A stretch of 64,000 bases of DNA from the NCBI RefSeq assembly GCF_000755245.1, contig NZ_BBMP01000010.1, forward strand, positions 1 through 64,000. Direction: 5' to 3'. Below the pieces are notes generated by a model, which was given only the letters and a program-made list of their open reading frames with translations, was not told where the DNA came from and did not search any database. The first letter of the stretch is position 1. Every line of letters begins with the position of its first letter. The DNA is from Halococcus sediminicola. GTDB lineage: Archaea; Halobacteriota; Halobacteria; Halobacteriales; Halococcaceae. The position numbers were made by a program, and so were the translations under genes. Positions 23,409 through 34,691 of the stretch are shown here, piece by piece.

Positions 23409-24773
23409 TTACTGCGACCGGTCGACCAGCGCTTCGTCGAGCAGTTCGAGCGGGTGACGTATCTCGTAGCCGGTGCCGTGTTCCATCTGCATCGCGCAGG
23501 TCGGACATTCGGTCATCCCAGTCTCGCCGTCGGCACCCTCCATGTGCTCGAACATCTCCGCGCCGATCTCCATCGAGTAGTCGTACTTCTCCTCCTTCCA
23601 GCCGTAGGTGCCCGAAATCCCCGAACAGGAGTCACCGACGTCCTCGATGTCCACGCCGTCGAGGTCCGAGAACAGTTCGACGGCCTGCGTGTCGAGTCCC
23701 TGATTGCGGGCATGACACGGTGCGTGGTAGGCGAACTCGCTCCCTTCGACCGACGCCTCGTCGAGCGCATCCTCCAAGTCCTCGTGCAGGCGGAGGTACT
23801 CGACACCCTCGTAGGTGTGGGCAGCGACGTCCTCGATGCCATCGAGATCGAACAGTTCGGGGTACTCCTGGCCGAGCGCCATCGAACAGGAAGTACAAGA
23901 GGCGACGACGTCGGCTCCGTTCTCGATCGCTGCGGCGAGATTTTTCACGTTGGTCTCGGCGTGGCGGCGCGCGTCGCCGAGCATCCCGTTGGCGAACATC
24001 GGCGTGCCCGAACACTTCTGTGGCGGGACGAGGATCTCGTAGCCGAAGTTCTCGTAGACCCTGACCATCGCCTTGCCGACTTCGGGCGTGTTGAAATTCG
24101 AGTAACAGCCGTGGAAGTACGCGATCCGCTTGTCGGGATTTTCGACCCGTGCCCCGCCGCGGGCGGTCCACCACTCGCGGAAGGTGTGGTCGGCGAATTC
24201 GGGGAACTCGCGCTCGCTCGTCACGCCCATCGTTTTCTCCATCGCCCAGCGCGCCGGCCCGAAGTTCATGACGAAGTTCGCCACGCCCGGCGCGTAGGAG
24301 GCGAGCCACGCCGACGTGTGGTAGTTCGCGAGAATTCGATTTCTGAGACGCTCGACCAGTCCGTCCTGGCCCTCCCGAACGATCGAGAGCGCCTCTCGTG
24401 GACTGCCGTCGGCGAGCGCCGACAGCGCCTCCCGGCCGAACCGTTGATCTTCGACGTACTCGCCACGGGCGGTGTTGTGCATCTGGCTCAGCGGCACCGA
24501 GGAAGGGCAGGCGTCGTCACAGCGCATGCAGTTCGAACACGACGTGATCGAATCGTCGATCCCGTGGCCCTCCTTGCGCTTGAGCCGCCATTGCTCAGGC
24601 CCCTGGAACTTCGGGCCGGGGAACTCGTCGTCGACTTCGGCGACCGGGCAAGAAGTATCACATGTCGAACACTTGTAGCAGTCGTCCGCGCCCGGACGGA
24701 GATCCATTTCGGTCGTCTCGAAGACGTCTACCGGCTCGAACTCGTCGGCGTCGTGGGTTGGTGCGTCGCTCAT
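23409..24773 (-). CDS. glpC: glycerol-3-phosphate dehydrogenase subunit C
   Basis: 454 residues. Two 4Fe-4S clusters: C32, C35, C38, C42 (CYKCSTCDTSCP) and C79, C82, C85, C89 (CSNCMRCDDACP). Then two cysteine-rich CCG domains, with FHGCYSNFN...KCSGTP and YHAPCHARNQ...DSCSGISG and TECPTCAMQ. The subunit passes electrons from GlpAB towards the quinone pool and anchors the complex at the membrane. It is last in a glpA-glpB-glpC operon, its start 9 bases past the glpB stop. It lies convergent to the formamidase gene with a 9-base gap. Confidence 0.93.
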   Translation of the reverse strand: MSDAPTHDADEFEPVDVFETTEMDLRPGADDCYKCSTCDTSCPVAEVDDEFPGPKFQGPEQWRLKRKEGHGIDDSITSCSNCMRCDDACPSSVPLSQMHNTARGEYVEDQRFGREALSALADGSPREALSIVREGQDGLVERLRNRILANYHTSAWLASYAPGVANFVMNFGPARWAMEKTMGVTSEREFPEFADHTFREWWTARGGARVENPDKRIAYFHGCYSNFNTPEVGKAMVRVYENFGYEILVPPQKCSGTPMFANGMLGDARRHAETNVKNLAAAIENGADVVASCTSCSMALGQEYPELFDLDGIEDVAAHTYEGVEYLRLHEDLEDALDEASVEGSEFAYHAPCHARNQGLDTQAVELFSDLDGVDIEDVGDSCSGISGTYGWKEEKYDYSMEIGAEMFEHMEGADGETGMTECPTCAMQMEHGTGYEIRHPLELLDEALVDRSQ

Positions 24774-24782
24774 GATTGAAAC

Positions 24783-26063
24783 TCATCGCTGATTCGCCGC
24801 CGCGCCCGCTGCACGGCCGGCCGCGTGGCCGGTCGCGAGCGAGATGCCGCTGCCCGATTTCTCCGCCGCGAAATCCGCCCCGCCGAGGACACCCCCGACG
24901 GCGCGGAGGTTGTCGTACTCCACTTTCCCATCCGCATCGAGTGGTCGCAAGTCGTCGTCGACATTGACCCCGAAGCGCGCGAACGGGTGGTCGCCGAACG
25001 CCTCGTCGGTGAACCACTCGTATCGGTCGTCGGGATGGGGAACGTGACAGTCGAAGATCGGCTCGACGACTCTCTCGCGATTCGAGTCGATCCCTTTGCC
25101 GACCAATCCACCAGTGGCGAGCACGAACTCGTCGGCGTGGAAGGGGACCTGCCGGCCGTTGCGGTCGGTGGATACGCTTCGGACTCGCTCACCGTCCGCG
25201 TCGAAGTCCACGACCGGGTTGCCGGTCGTCCGACGGACGCCCGCCGAATCGAGCGCTTCCTGAAATAGCGCTTCGAGCCCCAATCCGAGCAGGCTCGGCG
25301 GTCCCATCGGCACCTCGAAGACGTCGACCCCGAGGGACGATTCGAGCGCCTTCCGGACTTCCTGGGACTCCTCCTCGCCGAGTATCGCCGGAAACCCGAC
25401 CCGCTCTACGTCCCCGAGATGAGGCTCGACCGCTCGCGCGAGCGCGCGCCGTACCGGCGTCGGTCCGCTCGCGGTTTCGACGGGTTCGTCGTCATCGAGC
25501 GCGCGGGCGAAGCGCGTCACGCGCGAGTCGGCCCTGAAATCGCCCGGGAACGCGACGGTGACGCCTCGCGTCGTTCCTGGAACGCCGGCGGCAGCGAGGT
25601 GATCGGCCGCGAGCGGCGCGTCGAAGGCGGTCAGCGAATCGAACCCCACGAGCAGCGTTCTCCGACTTTGGCTCGCCAGTCCCGGGGCCACGCGCGTCGG
25701 GTAGCGCGCGGTCGGTTTCACGGTGCCGCCGTGGGTCGCCACGAGCGCGTTCGCGTCGGTGTGGCTTCCCCGGTAGGCGTCGCCGGTCACGTCGTCGAAC
25801 AAGGACAGCCCCGCTCGCACGGCGTCGCTGCCGACTCGTCGATAGGGATGGCTTTCGGGGAGAGAGGCGAGCGCGTCGAACGGCTCGGCGACGAGTTCGC
25901 CGTCGGCGTAGCCGAGGATGTCGATAAGCCCGCTCGCGTGCCGGAGCGTGCTCTTCTTGTGCGAGAGCAGTCGCACCCGCGCACCCTCGCGGGCCGCCCG
26001 GAGCGCGGCCGTCATACCGGCGAGTCCGCCGCCGATCACGCAGACGTCGTCCTCAATCGCCAC
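24783..26063 (-). CDS. glpB: glycerol-3-phosphate dehydrogenase subunit B
   Basis: 426 residues from a GTG at 26063. The N-terminal FAD-binding motif [21 protein letters not shown] directly follows the start, and a longer ATG frame inside glpA has an Arg-rich leader, so GTG is preferred. It overlaps the end of glpA by 11 bases. Late motifs include [13 protein letters not shown], and [28 protein letters not shown] near the C-terminus. Works with GlpA and GlpC to oxidise glycerol-3-phosphate to dihydroxyacetone phosphate. Confidence 0.93.
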
Positions 26064-27807
26064 GCCTGCCCTCCTCGTCGTCGGTCTCTTCGCGCGCACC
26101 ACCGTCACGACGACCGCCATCGGCTGCCGCTTCCGGCGTGGGACCGGCGTCGAAGCGCGCGTACTCGATCTCGTCCTCCGTGGCCGCCGGATCGCCGTCA
26201 CGGTTCATCGTGGTCGCGTGGAGCGCGTGGTTCAACATTGCCTGGGAGAGCTGTTCGCCCCAGAGCGCGTGGCGCTGGCCCTTCCAGCGCTCCTCGTACA
26301 GTTCGTCGAGCGCAGTTCGTGTGGTCGCCTCGTCGTATGCGGGATGGAGCAGCGCGGCCATCCGGTGGGCACAGAATCCGCCCTGACAGTTGCCCATCGA
26401 GGCGCGGGTGCGGATGCGTGTCGCGTTCAGATCGGTGCCCGCATCGCTGATAGCATGGTCGAGTTCCGCACGCGTGACTGCCTCGCACGTACAGATGACG
26501 GGATTGGGACCATCGGTCTTCAGCACCTCGTCGGCCATGCTCCCGAGGCGTTCGGTGCTCCGGCGGCCGACCGGCGACCGAAGGCCAAATTCCTCCATGT
26601 AGTCACGAAGCACCGAAAAGTCATCGCTGCCCGGCAGTGGTTCGTCGGCAGTGTGACAGGTCGCCTCGACGCCGAGTTTCTCGCAGACGTGATTCGTGAT
26701 TTGCTCGGCCATCAGCCGGTAGGTCGTGAGCTTGCCGCCCACGATACTCGTCATTCCCTCCAGACCGTCGCGCTCTGCGTGGTCGAGCAGGAAGAACTGC
26801 CGCGTGATGTCCGTCGGGTCGGTCGTGCCGGTGTCTGGTGGTTCGTAGAGCGGACGCACGCCCCAAAACGAGCGCAGGGTGCGAGCCTCCTTGAGGATGG
26901 GGACGAGTTCCGAGAGGGTGTCGATCATCGCGTCGACCTCCCACTGCTCTTCGGGATAGTCGTCGGGGTCCTCGACTTCTACATCAGTTGTCCCAAGGAT
27001 GCAGGCGGTTTCGTGGGGTACGATGATGTCGGCGTCGCCCTTCGGCCGGCAGCGGTTGACGACGGTATCCACTTGCCGGGTGTTCATCACGGTCATCACA
27101 CCCTTCGAGGGGCGGACCTCGACCTCGACGCCCGCCATCGCGCCCAACTGGCCGGCCCACGCGCCCGTCGCGTTCACCACGTGGTTGGCCTCGATGCGCT
27201 CGGTCGTGCCCGGTTCGTAGTGTGAGCGCTTGCCCGGCCCGCTCTCGTGGCGCACCTCCACACCTGTTACCCTACTATCCTCGACGAGCACGTCCGTGAC
27301 CTCGGCGTGGGTCTCGATGCGTGCGCCGTGTTCCTCGGCGTCGGCGGCGTTCGCCACACAGAGTCGGAAGGGGTCGATGGCCCCGTCGGGTACTCGGATC
27401 GCGCGCTCGACGTCGCGGGTGAGATACGGCTCCATCGCTCGCGCTTCTTCGCCGGTGAGTACCTCGGCCGGAATGCCACAGGCCCGACAGCCGGCGAGCT
27501 TTTCTTCGAAGTAGTCGTCCGCGTCGTCGGCGAGCTGGACGAACAGCCCGCCGGTCATCTCGATCGTGTGGCCCGCAACCTCCCGAAGAATTCGGTTTTC
27601 GGCGATGCACTCGGCGGCGCTCTCCTGATCGGAGACCGCGTACCGTCCGCCGCTGTGGAGTAGGCCGTGCATCCGGCCGGTGGTGCCGTGGGTGAGGTTG
27701 CCGCGCTCGACCAGCGTGGCGTCGACCCCGCGCAGCGCGAGGTCGCGGACGATGCCACAGCCCGTCGAGCCGCCGCCGATCACGAGCACCTCGGTTTCGG
27801 TTGCCAT
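26053..27807 (-). CDS. glpA: glycerol-3-phosphate dehydrogenase subunit A
   Basis: 584 residues. FAD-binding [21 protein letters not shown] at residues 8-28, then [17 protein letters not shown] and [15 protein letters not shown] of the catalytic G3P dehydrogenase domain. A BFD-like 2Fe-2S domain follows at about 430-490 with [11 protein letters not shown] and [11 protein letters not shown]. The C-terminal about 40 residues are low-complexity and acidic/Arg-rich. First gene of the glpABC operon; a TATA box lies about 35 bases upstream. The operon is divergent from the Orc1/Cdc6-like gene and glpK. Confidence 0.95.
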
Positions 27808-27837
27808 CGGTTCGTGGAGTCATCGCACTCCACGCGC

Positions 27838-27847
27838 TTTATTTTAT
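27838..27847 (-). promoter_or_regulatory. TATA-like box of glpABC
   Basis: ATAAAATAAA on the minus strand, centred about 35 bases upstream of the glpA ATG. Predicted leader about 10 bases. Confidence 0.65.
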
Positions 27848-27986
27848 CGGTGGGTCGTTGCCAGTCGTAGCTAACAGCCGTCCAAGAGGACTCGAACGGC
27901 CGCCAGTCACCGAACTGATGGGTTCGTCGCAACGTTGGCTCCGCGCCACCCGTCGTCCGCAGAAGGCTTATCACTACATACGGTGA

Positions 27987-28014
27987 TTTACGCCCGAACA
28001 CGTGTCAGTAGTAA
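27987..28014 (+). promoter_or_regulatory. shared glp element, copy 1 (upstream of Orc1/Cdc6-like gene)
   Basis: TTTACG followed 10 bases later by TGTCAGTAGTAA. The same 28-base arrangement occurs before glpK at 29392-29419, with 22 of 28 positions identical, including the final 12 bases. Just upstream here is TCAC-N8-GTGA (27971-27986). It may be a promoter/operator or a conserved leader element. Confidence 0.55.
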
Positions 28015-28125
28015 CAGACGGCGGACGATGGTTCATCGTCGAAACGGGCGACGGCAGGCCGCCTCGTCGATACCGGTCCCGCGCGCTCGATGGCCGACGA
28101 ACGGGTCGGTACGACGGGTAACACG

Positions 28126-29301
28126 ATGGATCTCGCCGCCCGCATCCGACGGCGTCGGGAATCGGTCGCCGAGACGCGGGTCGTGCTCGACTACCACGCC
28201 ATCAGCCCCGTCGCTCACGTCGACGAACCGACCAACCGGGGTACGGTGCTCGAACGCCTGTTGGACCACGCCGACCCGGTGTTCGACGGGCGACTCCCGC
28301 CGAACGCCTACGTCTGGGGACCGCCCGGGAGCGGGAAGTCGGCCGTCGTCACCGCGCTGTTCAGCCAACTCCGTCGCGTGGGGCCACTCTCGGATTCGGT
28401 GATCCACACGACGACCCGCGGCGGGACGAACGCGACGCCGTCGCTCGTCTACGTGGACGCGCGTCACGCGAACAGCGAGTTCGGTCTCTATCAGGCGGTT
28501 CTCGACGGGATGCTCGACGAATCGGTGCCCAAACACGGCGTCGGGACGGCGGCGCTCCGCTCGCGGCTGGCGGACACCCTCTCGGACGACCATCGGGTGC
28601 TCGTCGCGCTCGACCACGTCGACGAACCCGGCACGCGGTCGTTCGCGGCGACGGTGGAGGCGTTCGAGGGGATGGGGAGGTCGCTCTCGTGGCTCGCCAT
28701 CGGCCGTCGACCGCCATCGGCGCTTTCGGTCGACGGGCCGCCCGAGCGCATCGAGGTGCCGGCCTACCGCGACCTCGCGCTGGTGGACGTCCTGACCGCC
28801 CGCGCGTCGGCGGGGATGGCCCGGCGCGCCATCGAGCACGAACAGCTCCGCCGTATCGCCGTCTGGAGCGACGGCAACGCCCACGACGCGCTCTGTGTGC
28901 TGTTCGCCGCGGCCGACGAGGCGGCGCTCGCGGACGTCTCGACGGTCCGCGAGCGCGACCTTCACGCCGGCATGGACGCCCTCCCGCAGCCGTCGGTCTC
29001 GCTCGGGCGTGTGTTCGCGCTCTCGGCGAACCGCCAGCGGGTACTGGCACGCCTCATCGACATCGACGACGACCAGCGCGCGTCAGTCGACGCCGCAGCC
29101 ACCGCCGTCGCCGCCGCACCGGCCGTCGACCTCTCGGTGGGGACGGTGAAGCGACTGCTCTACGAACTCGCCGAGATCGGTATCGTCGAGCGGGTGACCG
29201 ACGAGCGCTCGTCGAACGGTGCCGGGCGCTCGCCGAGCCGCCTCGAACCACGATTTCCGATCCACGTTTTCCGTCGGCTCCACGCCCTCTCGGACCGGTA
29301 G
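28126..29301 (+). CDS. Orc1/Cdc6-like AAA+ ATPase with degenerate Walker B
   Basis: 391 residues from ATG 28126 (MDLAARIRRRRES); ATG 28090 would add 12 residues. The N-terminal VLDYHAISPVAHVDEPTNRG resembles the Orc1/Cdc6 entry region. Walker A GPPGSGKS is at about 65-72. Walker B reads VLVALDHVD (about 158-166), with His where the catalytic Glu of the DE pair is expected. A C-terminal winged helix (about 295-385) contains VGTVKRLLYELAEIGIVERV. It lies between divergent glpABC and glpK, not beside an obvious origin, and shares an upstream element with glpK. A DNA-binding regulator of glycerol genes is therefore more likely than a replication initiator, but this is inference. Confidence 0.8.
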   Translation: MDLAARIRRRRESVAETRVVLDYHAISPVAHVDEPTNRGTVLERLLDHADPVFDGRLPPNAYVWGPPGSGKSAVVTALFSQLRRVGPLSDSVIHTTTRGGTNATPSLVYVDARHANSEFGLYQAVLDGMLDESVPKHGVGTAALRSRLADTLSDDHRVLVALDHVDEPGTRSFAATVEAFEGMGRSLSWLAIGRRPPSALSVDGPPERIEVPAYRDLALVDVLTARASAGMARRAIEHEQLRRIAVWSDGNAHDALCVLFAAADEAALADVSTVRERDLHAGMDALPQPSVSLGRVFALSANRQRVLARLIDIDDDQRASVDAAATAVAAAPAVDLSVGTVKRLLYELAEIGIVERVTDERSSNGAGRSPSRLEPRFPIHVFRRLHALSDR

Positions 29302-29391
29302 CACCCGCGGCTCGGCGTCGTCCGGGTCGAGGGAACGTCTGAACGACTGGTACCGCGACCTACGCAAGATTTATGTGGATAGACGATGCTG

Positions 29392-29419
29392 TTTACGGTC
29401 GGAACCATGTCAGTAGTAA
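29392..29419 (+). promoter_or_regulatory. shared glp element, copy 2 (upstream of glpK)
   Basis: TTTACG-N10-TGTCAGTAGTAA, the same 28-base layout as 27987-28014. It begins about 20 bases downstream of a TATA-like GATTTATG (29369-29376), so it probably spans the transcription start and early leader of glpK, whose ATG is at 29457. Confidence 0.55.
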
Positions 29420-29456
29420 AAACCGGCCGACGCAAGCGACGGACGGAGAGCGCGCG

Positions 29457-30989
29457 ATGAGCGCCGAGACGTACGTCGGTGCCATCGACCAGGGTACCAC
29501 CGGGACGCGCTTCATGGTGTTCGACCACGGTGGTGGGGTCGTCGCCAGCGCCTACGAGAAACACGAACAGTTCTATCCCGAACCGGGCTGGGTCGAACAC
29601 GACCCGACGGAGATCTGGGAGAACACCAAGTCGGTCATCGCCGACGCGCTCGCGGCTGCCGACATCGACGCGAGCCAACTCGACGCCATCGGCGTCACCA
29701 ACCAGCGCGAGACGACGCTGTTCTGGGACGGCGACTCCGGCCGGCCGCTGATGCGCGCGGTCGTCTGGCAGGACCGCCGGACCACCGACCGCATCGAGGA
29801 ACTCGAAGCCGAGGGCAAGGCGGAGATGATCCAGTCGAAGACGGGTCTCGAACCCGATGCGTACTTCTCGGCGACGAAGGCCGAGTGGATCCTCGACAAC
29901 GCCGACCCCATCAAGCTCCAGCGTTCGCGCCCACAGGACGTCCGCGAGCGCGCCGACGACGGCGAGATCCGCTTCGGTACCATCGACTCGTGGCTCATCG
30001 ACAACCTCACCGGGAACCACATCACCGACGTGACGAACGCCTCCCGGACGATGCTGTTCAATATCCACGAGATGGACTGGGACGACGATCTCCTGGAGGA
30101 GTTTCGGGTGCCGCGCGCGTCGCTGCCGGAGGTCCGCCCGTCGAGCGACGAAAACCTCTACGGGACGACCGACGGGGATGGATTCCTCGGTGCCGAGGTG
30201 CCGGTCGCCGGTGCGCTCGGCGACCAGCAGGCCGCGCTGTTCGGCCAGACGTGTTTCGACCCCGGCGACGCGAAGAACACCTACGGAACGGGGTCGTTCT
30301 TCCTGCTCAACACAGGTGAAGAGGCCGTCGAGAGCGAGCACGGACTGCTGACCACGGTCGGCTTCCAGCGCTCGGGTGAGCCAGTCCAATACGCCCTCGA
30401 AGGCTCGATCTTCGTGACGGGCGCGGCCATCGAGTGGCTCGAAGACGTCGAACTCCTTGAGAACGCGATGGAGTCCGAATCGGTCGCCCGCAGCGTCGAT
30501 TCCACGGACGGTGTCTATCTCGTGCCCGCGTTCACGGGACTCGGTGCACCCCACTGGGACGGCCGTGCGAGAGGCACCATCGTCGGGATGACCCGCGGCA
30601 CCAGAAGGGAGCACATCGTCCGCGCGGCGCTCGAATCCATCGCCTTTCAGACCCGGGACGTCGCCGAGGCGATGGAGGCCGACGCCGACATCGAGATCAG
30701 TAGTTTGAAAGTCGATGGCGGTGCGGTGAAGAACAACTTCCTCTGTCAGCTCCAGGCGAACATCGTCGGCACCGACATCGTGCGTCCGGAGGTCGACGAG
30801 ACCACGGCGCTCGGATCGGCCTACGCCGCCGGTCTCGCCGTCGGCTACTGGAACGACCCCGACGAACTGCGCGAGAACTGGCAGGTCGACCGCGAGTTCA
30901 CGCCCGACGGGAGTGCCGACGTCGACGGCCGCTACGAGCGCTGGAGCGAGGCCGTCGAGCGCTCGCTCGACTGGGCACGGGAGGCCTGA
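29457..30989 (+). CDS. glpK: glycerol kinase
   Basis: 510 residues, standard for the FGGY kinase family. N-terminal YVGAIDQGTTGTRFMVFDHGG is the phosphate-1 ATP motif. Then GVTNQRETTLFWD and AVVWQDRRT (substrate Arg-Glu and Asp contacts), GDQQAALFGQTCF and TYGTGSFFLLNTG, and the FGGY-type signature region VDGGAVKNNFLCQLQANI (about 420). It phosphorylates glycerol, a major carbon source in hypersaline water, to G3P for GlpABC. ATG 29457 is immediately before the conserved core. The next gene starts directly after its stop. Confidence 0.96.
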   Translation: MSAETYVGAIDQGTTGTRFMVFDHGGGVVASAYEKHEQFYPEPGWVEHDPTEIWENTKSVIADALAAADIDASQLDAIGVTNQRETTLFWDGDSGRPLMRAVVWQDRRTTDRIEELEAEGKAEMIQSKTGLEPDAYFSATKAEWILDNADPIKLQRSRPQDVRERADDGEIRFGTIDSWLIDNLTGNHITDVTNASRTMLFNIHEMDWDDDLLEEFRVPRASLPEVRPSSDENLYGTTDGDGFLGAEVPVAGALGDQQAALFGQTCFDPGDAKNTYGTGSFFLLNTGEEAVESEHGLLTTVGFQRSGEPVQYALEGSIFVTGAAIEWLEDVELLENAMESESVARSVDSTDGVYLVPAFTGLGAPHWDGRARGTIVGMTRGTRREHIVRAALESIAFQTRDVAEAMEADADIEISSLKVDGGAVKNNFLCQLQANIVGTDIVRPEVDETTALGSAYAAGLAVGYWNDPDELRENWQVDREFTPDGSADVDGRYERWSEAVERSLDWAREA

Positions 30990-32063
30990 ATGCAGGCCCT
31001 ACTCCAGATTCCAGTCATCGGTCTCGGCGTCGAGGAGTTCGCCCTACTGGCCATCGCCGCTCTCGCCGGCGGCGCGTTCGGGGCGGCCCTCGGCGCGCTC
31101 CCGGCGTTCATCTTCACCGGGTTCGCGGTCTTCCTCGGCGAGGGTCTCAATATCCTCCAGGGGGCGATCACCTCGAACGTCGGCGCCCTCGACGCGGGAT
31201 CGCTCGGTGTCGACCTGACCGGTACGATCGGCTTTGGGATGGTCTTCGGCCCACACATCGCCTTCGCCGGCGGGGTGGCCGCCTCGGCGTACGCCGGCAA
31301 GAAGTATCCCGAGATGTCGCCCGCCGGGTGGGACTTTCACTTCGGGAAGAACATCCTGTACGCCTTCGGGACGAAACCCGACATCCTCGCGGTCGGTGCG
31401 GTCTTCGGTCTCGTGGGCATGCTCCTCAACCAGATCGCGAGCGGCATCGGCTTTCCGACCGACGGCATCGCGCTGTCGGTGTTCCTAACGGCGATGCTCG
31501 CACGCGTCGTCTTCGACTACCCGCTGATCGGCTCGCCGGCCGGCTCCTCGCTGTTCGACATGTCGCCGTTCGAGCGCGAGGAGGCGCGCTCGGTGGCCGA
31601 CGGCGGGACCGGCGACATGCGACTGGCGACCGAACCGTGGCTGCCCCACCAGTACAAGTGGCCCGGTGTCGCGGTCATCGGCGTCGTCGGCGGGGCTCTC
31701 GGCGGTTACATCTGGATCGAGACTGGCAGCATCTTCCTCGGCTACGCCTTCTCGGCGATGAGCCTGCTCTTTCTCAATCTCGGCGTCGAGAAGATCCCCG
31801 TCACCCACCACATGACGCTGTTGGGTGCGGTCGGGGCCGTCGTCGCCACGGAGATGGTCGGCGGGCCGGTCGTCGCCATCCTCGGGGCCGCCCTCTTCGG
31901 CGGTCTCACCGGACTCCTCGGCGAGGCGACCCAGCGGGTCTTCTACTCGCACTCGGGCACGCACGTCGACCCGCCGGCGATGGCCATCGCGGCCGCCATG
32001 TTCGTCGTGGGCGTGCTCTACCTCATTGGACTTATCCCGACCTCGGGCTACCTCGGTCTCTAA
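30990..32063 (+). CDS. multi-pass membrane protein linked to glycerol kinase
   Basis: 357 residues with about 8-10 hydrophobic segments (for example FALLAIAALAGGAFGAALGA, ILAVGAVFGLVGMLLNQ and ILGAALFGGLTGLLGEA) and a charged central loop around residues 190-225. The ATG abuts the glpK TGA with no gap, so the proteins are co-translated. No aquaporin NPA motif is visible, hence it is not a classical GlpF. As I recall, haloarchaeal glpK genes commonly carry such a neighbour, thought to be a glycerol facilitator; this rests on context, not on motif. Confidence 0.75.
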   Translation: MQALLQIPVIGLGVEEFALLAIAALAGGAFGAALGALPAFIFTGFAVFLGEGLNILQGAITSNVGALDAGSLGVDLTGTIGFGMVFGPHIAFAGGVAASAYAGKKYPEMSPAGWDFHFGKNILYAFGTKPDILAVGAVFGLVGMLLNQIASGIGFPTDGIALSVFLTAMLARVVFDYPLIGSPAGSSLFDMSPFEREEARSVADGGTGDMRLATEPWLPHQYKWPGVAVIGVVGGALGGYIWIETGSIFLGYAFSAMSLLFLNLGVEKIPVTHHMTLLGAVGAVVATEMVGGPVVAILGAALFGGLTGLLGEATQRVFYSHSGTHVDPPAMAIAAAMFVVGVLYLIGLIPTSGYLGL

Positions 32064-32744: not shown

Positions 32745-33521
32745 ATGGTCGAAACACACCCACGAGAGATAGCCGTCACCCAACTCGAACAGTTGGGACT
32801 CACCGAGTACGAGGCGAGTACGTTCGTCGCGCTCGTCCGACTCGGAACGGGCACTGCCAAGGACATCGCCGACATCGACCACGTTCCGCGGACGCGCGTC
32901 TACGACGCCGTCGAATCGCTCCACGACCGCGGTCTCGTCGACGTCCAGCACTCGACGCCACAGACGTTTACTACCGTCTCCCACGAGACCGCCCTCCGCA
33001 AACTCCGCCTCGACCACGAGAACCTCATCAATCGTCTCGACACGGCGCTCGCCCAACTCGATCCCGCCGAGCCACACCGCGAGGAACTCGGCGTCTGGAC
33101 CACCATCGGCCGGGAGGCGATCGCCAGCCGAGTCGTAGAATTCATCGACGACACCGACGACGAACTCGTCTTCATGACCGTCGACGACCTGCTTACCGAG
33201 ACCCACCTCGATCAGTTGGCGACCGCCGCCGAGAGGGGCGTCGAGATCCACCTCACGGGCATCTCCGAACCGGTACAACACCGCCTCGAAGAGCGCGTCC
33301 CCGAAGCGACGCTGTTCGAGACGCTCTGGGACTGGGAGGAGGCCTCGGCCGGCAGCCTCCTCGTCACCGACGAGCAGACCGCACTCGTGAGCGTGTTGTT
33401 GCCCAAATCGAACGACGGCACCGAGGAGACGGCCATCTGGGGAACGGGCGAGTACAACAGTCTCGTGGTCGTCCTCCGGGCCATCTTCACCTGGCGCTTC
33501 CAGCACGAAGACGACGAGTGA
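32745..33521 (+). CDS. TrmB family transcriptional regulator
   Basis: 258 residues. The N-terminal winged helix (about 12-75) reads LEQLGLTEYEASTFVALVRLG then AKDIADIDHVPRTRVYDAVESLHDRGLV, the TrmB pattern. A short coiled-coil-like helix follows (about 85-110), then a phospholipase-D-like domain (about 120-255) with ELVFMTVDDLL. It lacks the long sugar-binding extension of full-length TrmB, so its effector is unclear. It faces a TbsP-type regulator convergently across 33522-33860. Confidence 0.88.
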   Translation: MVETHPREIAVTQLEQLGLTEYEASTFVALVRLGTGTAKDIADIDHVPRTRVYDAVESLHDRGLVDVQHSTPQTFTTVSHETALRKLRLDHENLINRLDTALAQLDPAEPHREELGVWTTIGREAIASRVVEFIDDTDDELVFMTVDDLLTETHLDQLATAAERGVEIHLTGISEPVQHRLEERVPEATLFETLWDWEEASAGSLLVTDEQTALVSVLLPKSNDGTEETAIWGTGEYNSLVVVLRAIFTWRFQHEDDE

Positions 33522-33860: not shown

Positions 33861-34691
33861 TCACGCCGGAACCGCCGAGAGCAACTCGCCGACCACGCTC
33901 GGTAGTTTCTCGATGTCCGTCTCCCGTAGGCGCTCGTCACCCACCAGCAAGCGCAATCGCGGACGTCCGACGTCGATCGGCACCTTCTCGGTCTCGATCA
34001 GCCCCTGCTCTTCGAGGCGGGTCTTCGTCCGCGAGAACGTCGCCTTGCTCGCCACGCCCGTGTCCTCGCCCCAGTGCGAAATGTCGTACAGCAGTTTCTC
34101 GTGTCTGGCCGCCACCAGCAGGCTCACCCCCACTTCGTTCAGAACGGTCGCATCGCGCGTGCTCCCGAGCGTGTCCAGCACTGTCCGGTAGTCCGATTCG
34201 ACGGCCGAACCGAACTCCTCGCCGAGCGATTCCAGCACACGCGAGCGCGCCGGCGTCCGCAGACCGAACTCCTCGCTGCTCTCCCACGCGCGGCTCCAGC
34301 GCTCGCGTGCCGCTCCGACGAACTCCCCGTCGTCGGTTCCGAGCGTCCCGACGAGACCGTCCGGTGTGAGAAGCGACAGTACCGTCTCGTCGGTCACCAA
34401 CAGCGTGTTCGCCAAGCGCTCGCTCGCCGCCCGCAGTTTCAGTACATCCGCATCGACCAACTCCGCCGTCGCGCTCGCCAGCACGAAATCCTCCCGGAGC
34501 CACTTCAGGACGTCCTCACGAACGAGCAAGCGTACCGTCGGTGGCTCCTCGCTCTCGGCGAGTACCTCGACGAGTCGGCTCGTCGCTCGTTCGTCGAGGT
34601 TGACCGCGAGTAGCTCCCCACTCGTCTCGTCGACGATCACCCGCAGGCTCTCGGTGACGGACGTTCCCACACGGAGTGATGCTGTGGTCAT
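33861..34691 (-). CDS. TbsP-like transcriptional regulator (DUF5821 type)
   Basis: 276 residues starting MTTASLRVGTSVTESLRVIVDE. Residues about 1-120 form an alpha/beta domain; about 120-180 are helical; and the C-terminal winged helix (about 195-265) reads DISHWGEDTGVASKATFSRTKTRLEEQGLIETEKVPIDVGRPRLRL. The layout fits the haloarchaeal TbsP family, described as acting with TrmB on the glycolysis/gluconeogenesis gene gapII in Haloferax. Family naming is from memory. TATA-like ATATAGAT lies about 26 bases upstream with ACTCAATAG immediately before it. Confidence 0.7.
   Translation of the reverse strand: MTTASLRVGTSVTESLRVIVDETSGELLAVNLDERATSRLVEVLAESEEPPTVRLLVREDVLKWLREDFVLASATAELVDADVLKLRAASERLANTLLVTDETVLSLLTPDGLVGTLGTDDGEFVGAARERWSRAWESSEEFGLRTPARSRVLESLGEEFGSAVESDYRTVLDTLGSTRDATVLNEVGVSLLVAARHEKLLYDISHWGEDTGVASKATFSRTKTRLEEQGLIETEKVPIDVGRPRLRLLVGDERLRETDIEKLPSVVGELLSAVPA

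Follow-up and report, generated by a model that had tools for sequence, protein, structure and literature searches.

Why should a gene for a protein resembling the archaeal replication initiators lie among the glycerol genes of a haloarchaeon? We addressed this question for a 64,000-nucleotide stretch of Halococcus sediminicola DNA (contig NZ_BBMP01000010.1, positions 1 to 64,000; hereafter, the window). Glycerol is a main carbon source of haloarchaea. The mechanism by which glycerol metabolism is activated in Haloferax volcanii was not fully understood as of 2025 (PMC12853182). A first-pass annotation of the window had proposed that an Orc1/Cdc6-like ATPase has been co-opted here as a regulator of glycerol genes. 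This proposal gains support from the coupling of the protein to glpK, a linkage that persists through gene rearrangements, duplicates beside ugp and second glpK genes, the loss of catalytic residues, and a candidate operator whose presence follows that of the protein. We consider it likely that the protein is a transcription factor, derived from an Orc1/Cdc6 initiator, that governs the haloarchaeal glycerol and glycerol-3-phosphate genes at the inverted repeat TTTAY-N19-RTAAA, probably as a glycerol-3-phosphate-relieved repressor.

Gene neighborhood of orc

The orc gene (28126-29301, + strand) encodes a 391-aa putative regulator of Orc1/Cdc6 descent with a degenerate AAA+ module and a C-terminal winged helix. 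An alternative upstream ATG lies at 28090; the methionine at 28126 is the family start (M in 92 of 102 members). The reading frame had been placed between divergent glpABC and glpK, and these coordinates proved exact, with both GlpA and GlpK scoring over their NCBIfam cut-offs. The minus strand carries glpA (26053-27807) for subunit A of glycerol-3-phosphate dehydrogenase (TIGR03377, 742 bits), glpB (24783-26201; NF003722, 676 bits), whose annotated start is too long, and glpC (23409-24773; NF008369, 576 bits). The glycerol kinase gene glpK (29457-30989, + strand; TIGR01311, 689 bits) starts with the ATG at 29457 at the conserved MSAETYVGAIDQ, and the next gene on the same strand (30990-32063) encodes a membrane protein that is a conserved part of the glp cluster. 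This protein, of the HQ1732A type, matched no Pfam family over cut-off, belongs to a type conserved at 78 of 101 glp loci, and is a candidate glycerol transporter. The loci closest to that of the window are those of Halococcus morrhuae and H. thailandensis (84-85%). Downstream of the glp cluster, the window also encodes a TrmB-like regulator (32745-33521) and TbsP (33861-34691; NF047393, over cut-off), neither of which was found to be conserved at glp loci elsewhere.

An Orc1/Cdc6-like protein with a degenerate ATPase site

A Pfam scan of the protein identified AAA_16 (8.6e-15), and the NCBIfam orc1/cdc6 family model TIGR02928 matched with 66.4 bits, below its curated cut-off of 181.3. A DeoR model was not matched in the Pfam and NCBIfam scans, which returned AAA, Cdc6 and weak HTH matches only. 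The structure predicted by AF2 was of moderate confidence overall (pLDDT 69, pTM 0.55) and reached pLDDT 83-92 over residues 301-350. The top four Foldseek matches were the archaeal Orc1/Cdc6 structures 2qby_A (1.5e-13), 1fnn_A, 2v1u_A and 2qby_B, all matched over the full length, and the PDB sequence matches were also to Cdc6. The C-terminal winged helix, already noted at first reading, is thus backed by both the model and the whole-length structural matches. The succession of an AAA+ module and a winged helix, together with these best matches, places the protein in the Orc1/Cdc6 superfamily. As judged from the model, the Orc1/Cdc6 fold assignment stands, whereas the initiator label does not.

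We built a clade profile from an alignment of eight relatives and searched it against 292 Halobacteria genomes. A wide score gap separated the full-length clade members (E-values of 1e-94 or lower) from canonical Orcs (1e-20 or higher), and the protein belongs to a separate clade that, by context, is of the orc15/HVO_1537 type. We take HVO_1537 of H. volcanii, a neighbor of glpA1, to be a probable orthologue on the strength of this context; it is named Orc15, is assigned to COG1474, and has a gene of similar size (1203 bp). Haloarchaeal initiators of the Orc1/Cdc6 family (TIGR02928; orc1/oriC1 among them) share with the window protein the fold, the domain order and a distant similarity of 66 bits. 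The window protein nevertheless lies far below the cut-off of 181 and is not accompanied by ORB repeats, and its clade has lost the catalytic residues and is linked to glp and ugp genes rather than to origins.

The first-pass reading of an intact Walker A and a Walker B of LDH was correct: the former is GPPGSGKS, and the survey of homologues that it called for found the Walker B glutamate replaced by histidine (H164) in all 102 aligned clade members, so that LDH is no sequencing slip. The sensor-1 asparagine was present in 0/102 members, which carry R or Q instead, and the sensor-2 arginine is histidine in 98/102 (His253 in the window protein). In 19 of the 102 members, all from one Halobacteria family (L125-L153), even the Walker A lysine is replaced by threonine (GPxGxGTS), and nucleotide binding itself may therefore be gone there. 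The eight canonical Orcs of the same genome served as a control and showed Walker B glutamate in seven and aspartate in one, sensor-1 asparagine in 7/8 with one serine, and the sensor-2 arginine and Walker A lysine in all eight. The combination of an intact Walker B (DE), sensor-1 Asn and sensor-2 Arg that marks an initiator was accordingly not found in the clade. The winged helix is among the best conserved parts of the protein, with T340, R343, Y346 and R356 invariant and E347 present in 100 of the 102 members, as is a family-specific TxTR insert with invariant T95, T97 and R98. Judged by its residues, the clade shows what one would expect of a DNA-binding protein freed from ATP hydrolysis.

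The nearest characterized precedent is Orc1-2 of Saccharolobus/Sulfolobus islandicus, an Orc-derived, promoter-binding regulator whose Walker B mutant binds DNA as well as or better than the wild type (PMC9738581). Orc1-2 resembles the glycerol-linked clade in its Orc1/Cdc6 fold, its AAA+ module and winged helix, its non-initiator role and its proposed action at promoters (PMC9738581). In contrast to the clade, both of its Walker motifs (A and B) are retained and its switching off depends on ATP hydrolysis, the E154A substitution being lethal (PMC9738581); an off-switch of this kind does not fit the residues of the clade, in which the Walker B glutamate is replaced in every member. The site bound by Orc1-2, ANTTTC, is asymmetric, and the signal to which it responds is DNA damage, whereas the clade has a candidate two-armed site and accompanies glycerol genes.

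Distribution and linkage to glycerol genes

The clade was present in 218 of the 292 Halobacteria genomes and absent from 74. Both the clade and glpK occurred in 216 genomes, the clade only in 2, glpK only in 34, and neither in 40; the absence of the clade from the 34 glpK-only genomes was rechecked at full depth. This co-occurrence is highly significant by Fisher's test on raw counts that ignore phylogeny (3e-26).

Of the 101 loci retrieved, 89 have glpK no more than roughly 8 kb from the clade gene. The linkage persists through at least five arrangements, in which the gene is flanked by glpA and glpK, follows glpK plus the membrane gene, follows glpC, or occurs in two further orders. No other DNA-binding protein was conserved at the glp loci among these 101. 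Four copies away from glp, all of them second copies (L146, L152, L155, L157), adjoin genes of the glycerol-3-phosphate ABC transporter Ugp; UgpC scored above its curated cut-off, and the UgpA and UgpB matches scored below theirs. Two further loci (L100, L104) have a copy beside a second glycerol kinase gene (over cut-off) and a gene for a PhnD-like binding protein. Glycerol-3-phosphate is the common denominator of the glp, ugp and second-glpK contexts.

A candidate operator at the glp promoters

We searched 86 non-redundant glpA-glpK/orc intergenic regions for motifs de novo and obtained two, M1 and M2. In extended alignments, both resolved into one inverted repeat, TTTAY-N19-RTAAA, a 29-bp candidate operator that was found before glpA, glpK and orc. 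M2 was dropped as a single element and divided into the operator part and a BRE/TATA part, the latter being kept in some genomes that lack the family. The exact repeat with a spacing of 19 occurs in 47 of 92 glpA and 55 of 105 glpK upstream regions, in none of which was it present at spacings of 8-18.

The site follows the protein across genomes. With one mismatch allowed, it was detected upstream of glpK in 78/105 loci with the family versus 1/35 without (p ~1e-14) and upstream of glpA in 77/92 versus 1/29 (p ~1e-15); both exceptions without the family come from G282, a draft genome of 140 contigs. Across 1.9 Mb of loci, glp upstream regions contained 76 exact sites and the remaining sequence none. 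Among genomes outside the discovery set, the exact site was found before glpK in 16 of 16 family-positive genomes among the matches listed, mostly of one genus and of a handful of genera overall, and in 0 of 28 negatives. The site also disappears along with the gene between members of a genus: the genome G167 keeps TTTATAATGAT, the TATA half, without the TGTTTAC half that is present in G085 of that genus. The two arms also co-vary, changing from TTTAC/GTAAA to TTCAC/GTGAA on both sides in one genus (L112, L121, L177-L183), where the glpK operator lies about 180-250 nt from the ATG. Single-mismatch operators were located 116-118 nt before ugpB in two of the four ugp loci and upstream of the kinase gene in both second-glpK operons. 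Clear sites were absent from several family-positive loci (L099, L126, L006, L101, L105, L146, L154). In L099 and L126, the Orc-like gene adjoins glpA; these two genomes may have a second copy with a different specificity.

In the window, the operator-type repeat before glpK, TTTACGGTCGGAACCATGTCAGTAGTAAA (29392-29420), is exact and ends 36 nt before the glpK ATG. The predicted BRE/TATA of glpK (GCAAGA + TTTATG, 29364-29375, + strand), conserved as GNAANNTTTATA in 84 glpK promoters, precedes it by 22 nt from TATA start to first operator arm, so both arms lie downstream, over the predicted start and leader. The repeat before orc, TTTACGCCCGAACACGTGTCAGTAGTAAC (27987-28015), has one mismatch and lies in the glpA-orc intergenic region; its position implies autoregulation. 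At glpA, the conserved promoter motif M1, ACCGATAAAATAAAGCGCGTGG (27830-27851, - strand), stands 22 nt ahead of the ATG and shares sequence with both the TATA region and the second operator arm; the glpA operator is degenerate here (27843-27871, 2 mismatches).

The first-pass annotation had stated that recognizable origin repeats are missing. This holds for ORB-type repeats with a G-rich stretch, as none were found near orc, where only the TTTAY-N19-RTAAA pair and chance repeats occur; for repeats overall it does not hold, since a 41-nt pair that is 76% identical (27987-28027 before orc and 29392-29432 before glpK), stronger than any other direct repeat within the 2.1 kb around it, had been missed. 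The pair is likely the operator. An ORB-like reading of M1 (GATAAAATAAAGTGGG) was discarded because conservation is weak at its G-rich end and because it shares sequence with the TATA region. Elsewhere in the genome, the exact match C22:100431 was rejected as an operator, having a counterpart in genomes without the family and resembling back-to-back TATA boxes. Another exact TTTAY-N19-RTAAA (C5:38771-38799, L239) lies a few bases before a different Orc-like gene with an intact Walker B; this site is either autoregulatory or a chance match.

Proposed mechanism and alternative explanations

Regulation of the glp genes by the Orc-like protein is well supported by these genomic comparisons: the persistent linkage to glp, and a candidate operator whose absence goes with that of the protein, make a glycerol gene switch the most likely function. 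The protein is probably a repressor relieved by glycerol-3-phosphate. Repression is inferred from the location of the glpK repeat downstream of the BRE/TATA, over the predicted start, and from the overlap of the glpA repeat with the TATA region, so that the sign depends on TATA positions predicted from sequence. The ligand is proposed because a family with a dead Walker B would need another off-switch, for which a metabolite is suggested. Two protomers would bind the two arms of TTTAY-N19-RTAAA through their winged helices, presumably by direct contact, at sites that cover or closely follow the TATA box at glpK and orc and cover the TATA region at glpA. Once bound, the protein would prevent transcription. 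It would be released as glycerol-3-phosphate accumulates and acts on the degenerate AAA+ module or on the TxTR insert, and the presence of orc inside operons under its control would lead to self-regulation. A glycerol-3-phosphate-inducible promoter before glpA1 was reportedly described in a 2011 J Bacteriol study on glpA1 regulation, which would fit. The complete picture, in which a non-hydrolyzing pseudo-ATPase of the Orc1/Cdc6 fold, perhaps unable to bind ATP in one family, senses glycerol-3-phosphate and represses both glp and ugp genes via the two-armed operator in most haloarchaea, is tentative, if quite conceivable.

The same protein and operator could instead serve activation or dual regulation, with TBP/TFB or RNA polymerase being recruited to glpA and glpK when glycerol-3-phosphate is present. 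One arm at glpA lies upstream of the TATA-like element, a position co-transcribed with glpK fits positive feedback, and Orc1-2 of S. islandicus activates genes (PMC9738581). The arrangement at glpK, with both arms beyond the conserved BRE/TATA, usually means repression, however, and the site before orc implies autorepression; we regard activation as a somewhat unlikely alternative. It is less probable still that an unlinked regulator, perhaps one that disappears along with orc, binds the repeat while the Orc-like protein serves glycerol metabolism in another way, e.g., as an adaptor or assembly factor. Loci that have the protein without the site would agree with this, but gains and losses of the site match those of the protein, within genera too, stand-alone or ugp-linked copies have the site upstream as well, the Orc-like protein is the sole conserved DNA-binding protein at the locus, and the residues of its winged helix rank with the best conserved ones.

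The Orc1/Cdc6 fold would also be explained if the protein were an ordinary replication initiator, or one belonging to a dormant origin, whose gene sits in a stable cluster by chance. Under the name orc15, HVO_1537 is one of the 16 "replication initiators" given for H. volcanii (PMC2841640), its only appearance in the open literature searched, where no function of orc15 was found. We rejected this role as very improbable, given that catalytic residues are lost in all members, including the Walker A lysine in one family, that about a quarter of the genomes lack the clade, that the window contains neither an ORB-like G-rich repeat array nor a skew switch, and that the duplicates follow glycerol-3-phosphate genes, not origins.

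Implications

The known regulators of glycerol or sugar genes, namely GlpR, GfcR, TrmB and TbsP in haloarchaea and GlpR in E. coli, have similar targets but belong to DeoR-type, TrmB-type or otherwise unrelated folds. Regulators with the Orc1/Cdc6 fold are known as such; the new points here are the proposed metabolic role, an ATPase that appears dead, and a candidate operator of its own. The glycerol-3-phosphate-relieved repressor proposed above offers a named candidate regulator and a 29-bp candidate operator for a tractable model, and hints that not all of the numerous "extra" orc genes of haloarchaea encode initiators. It also points to a route by which an origin-binding AAA+ protein may lose its ATPase and turn into a metabolic switch.
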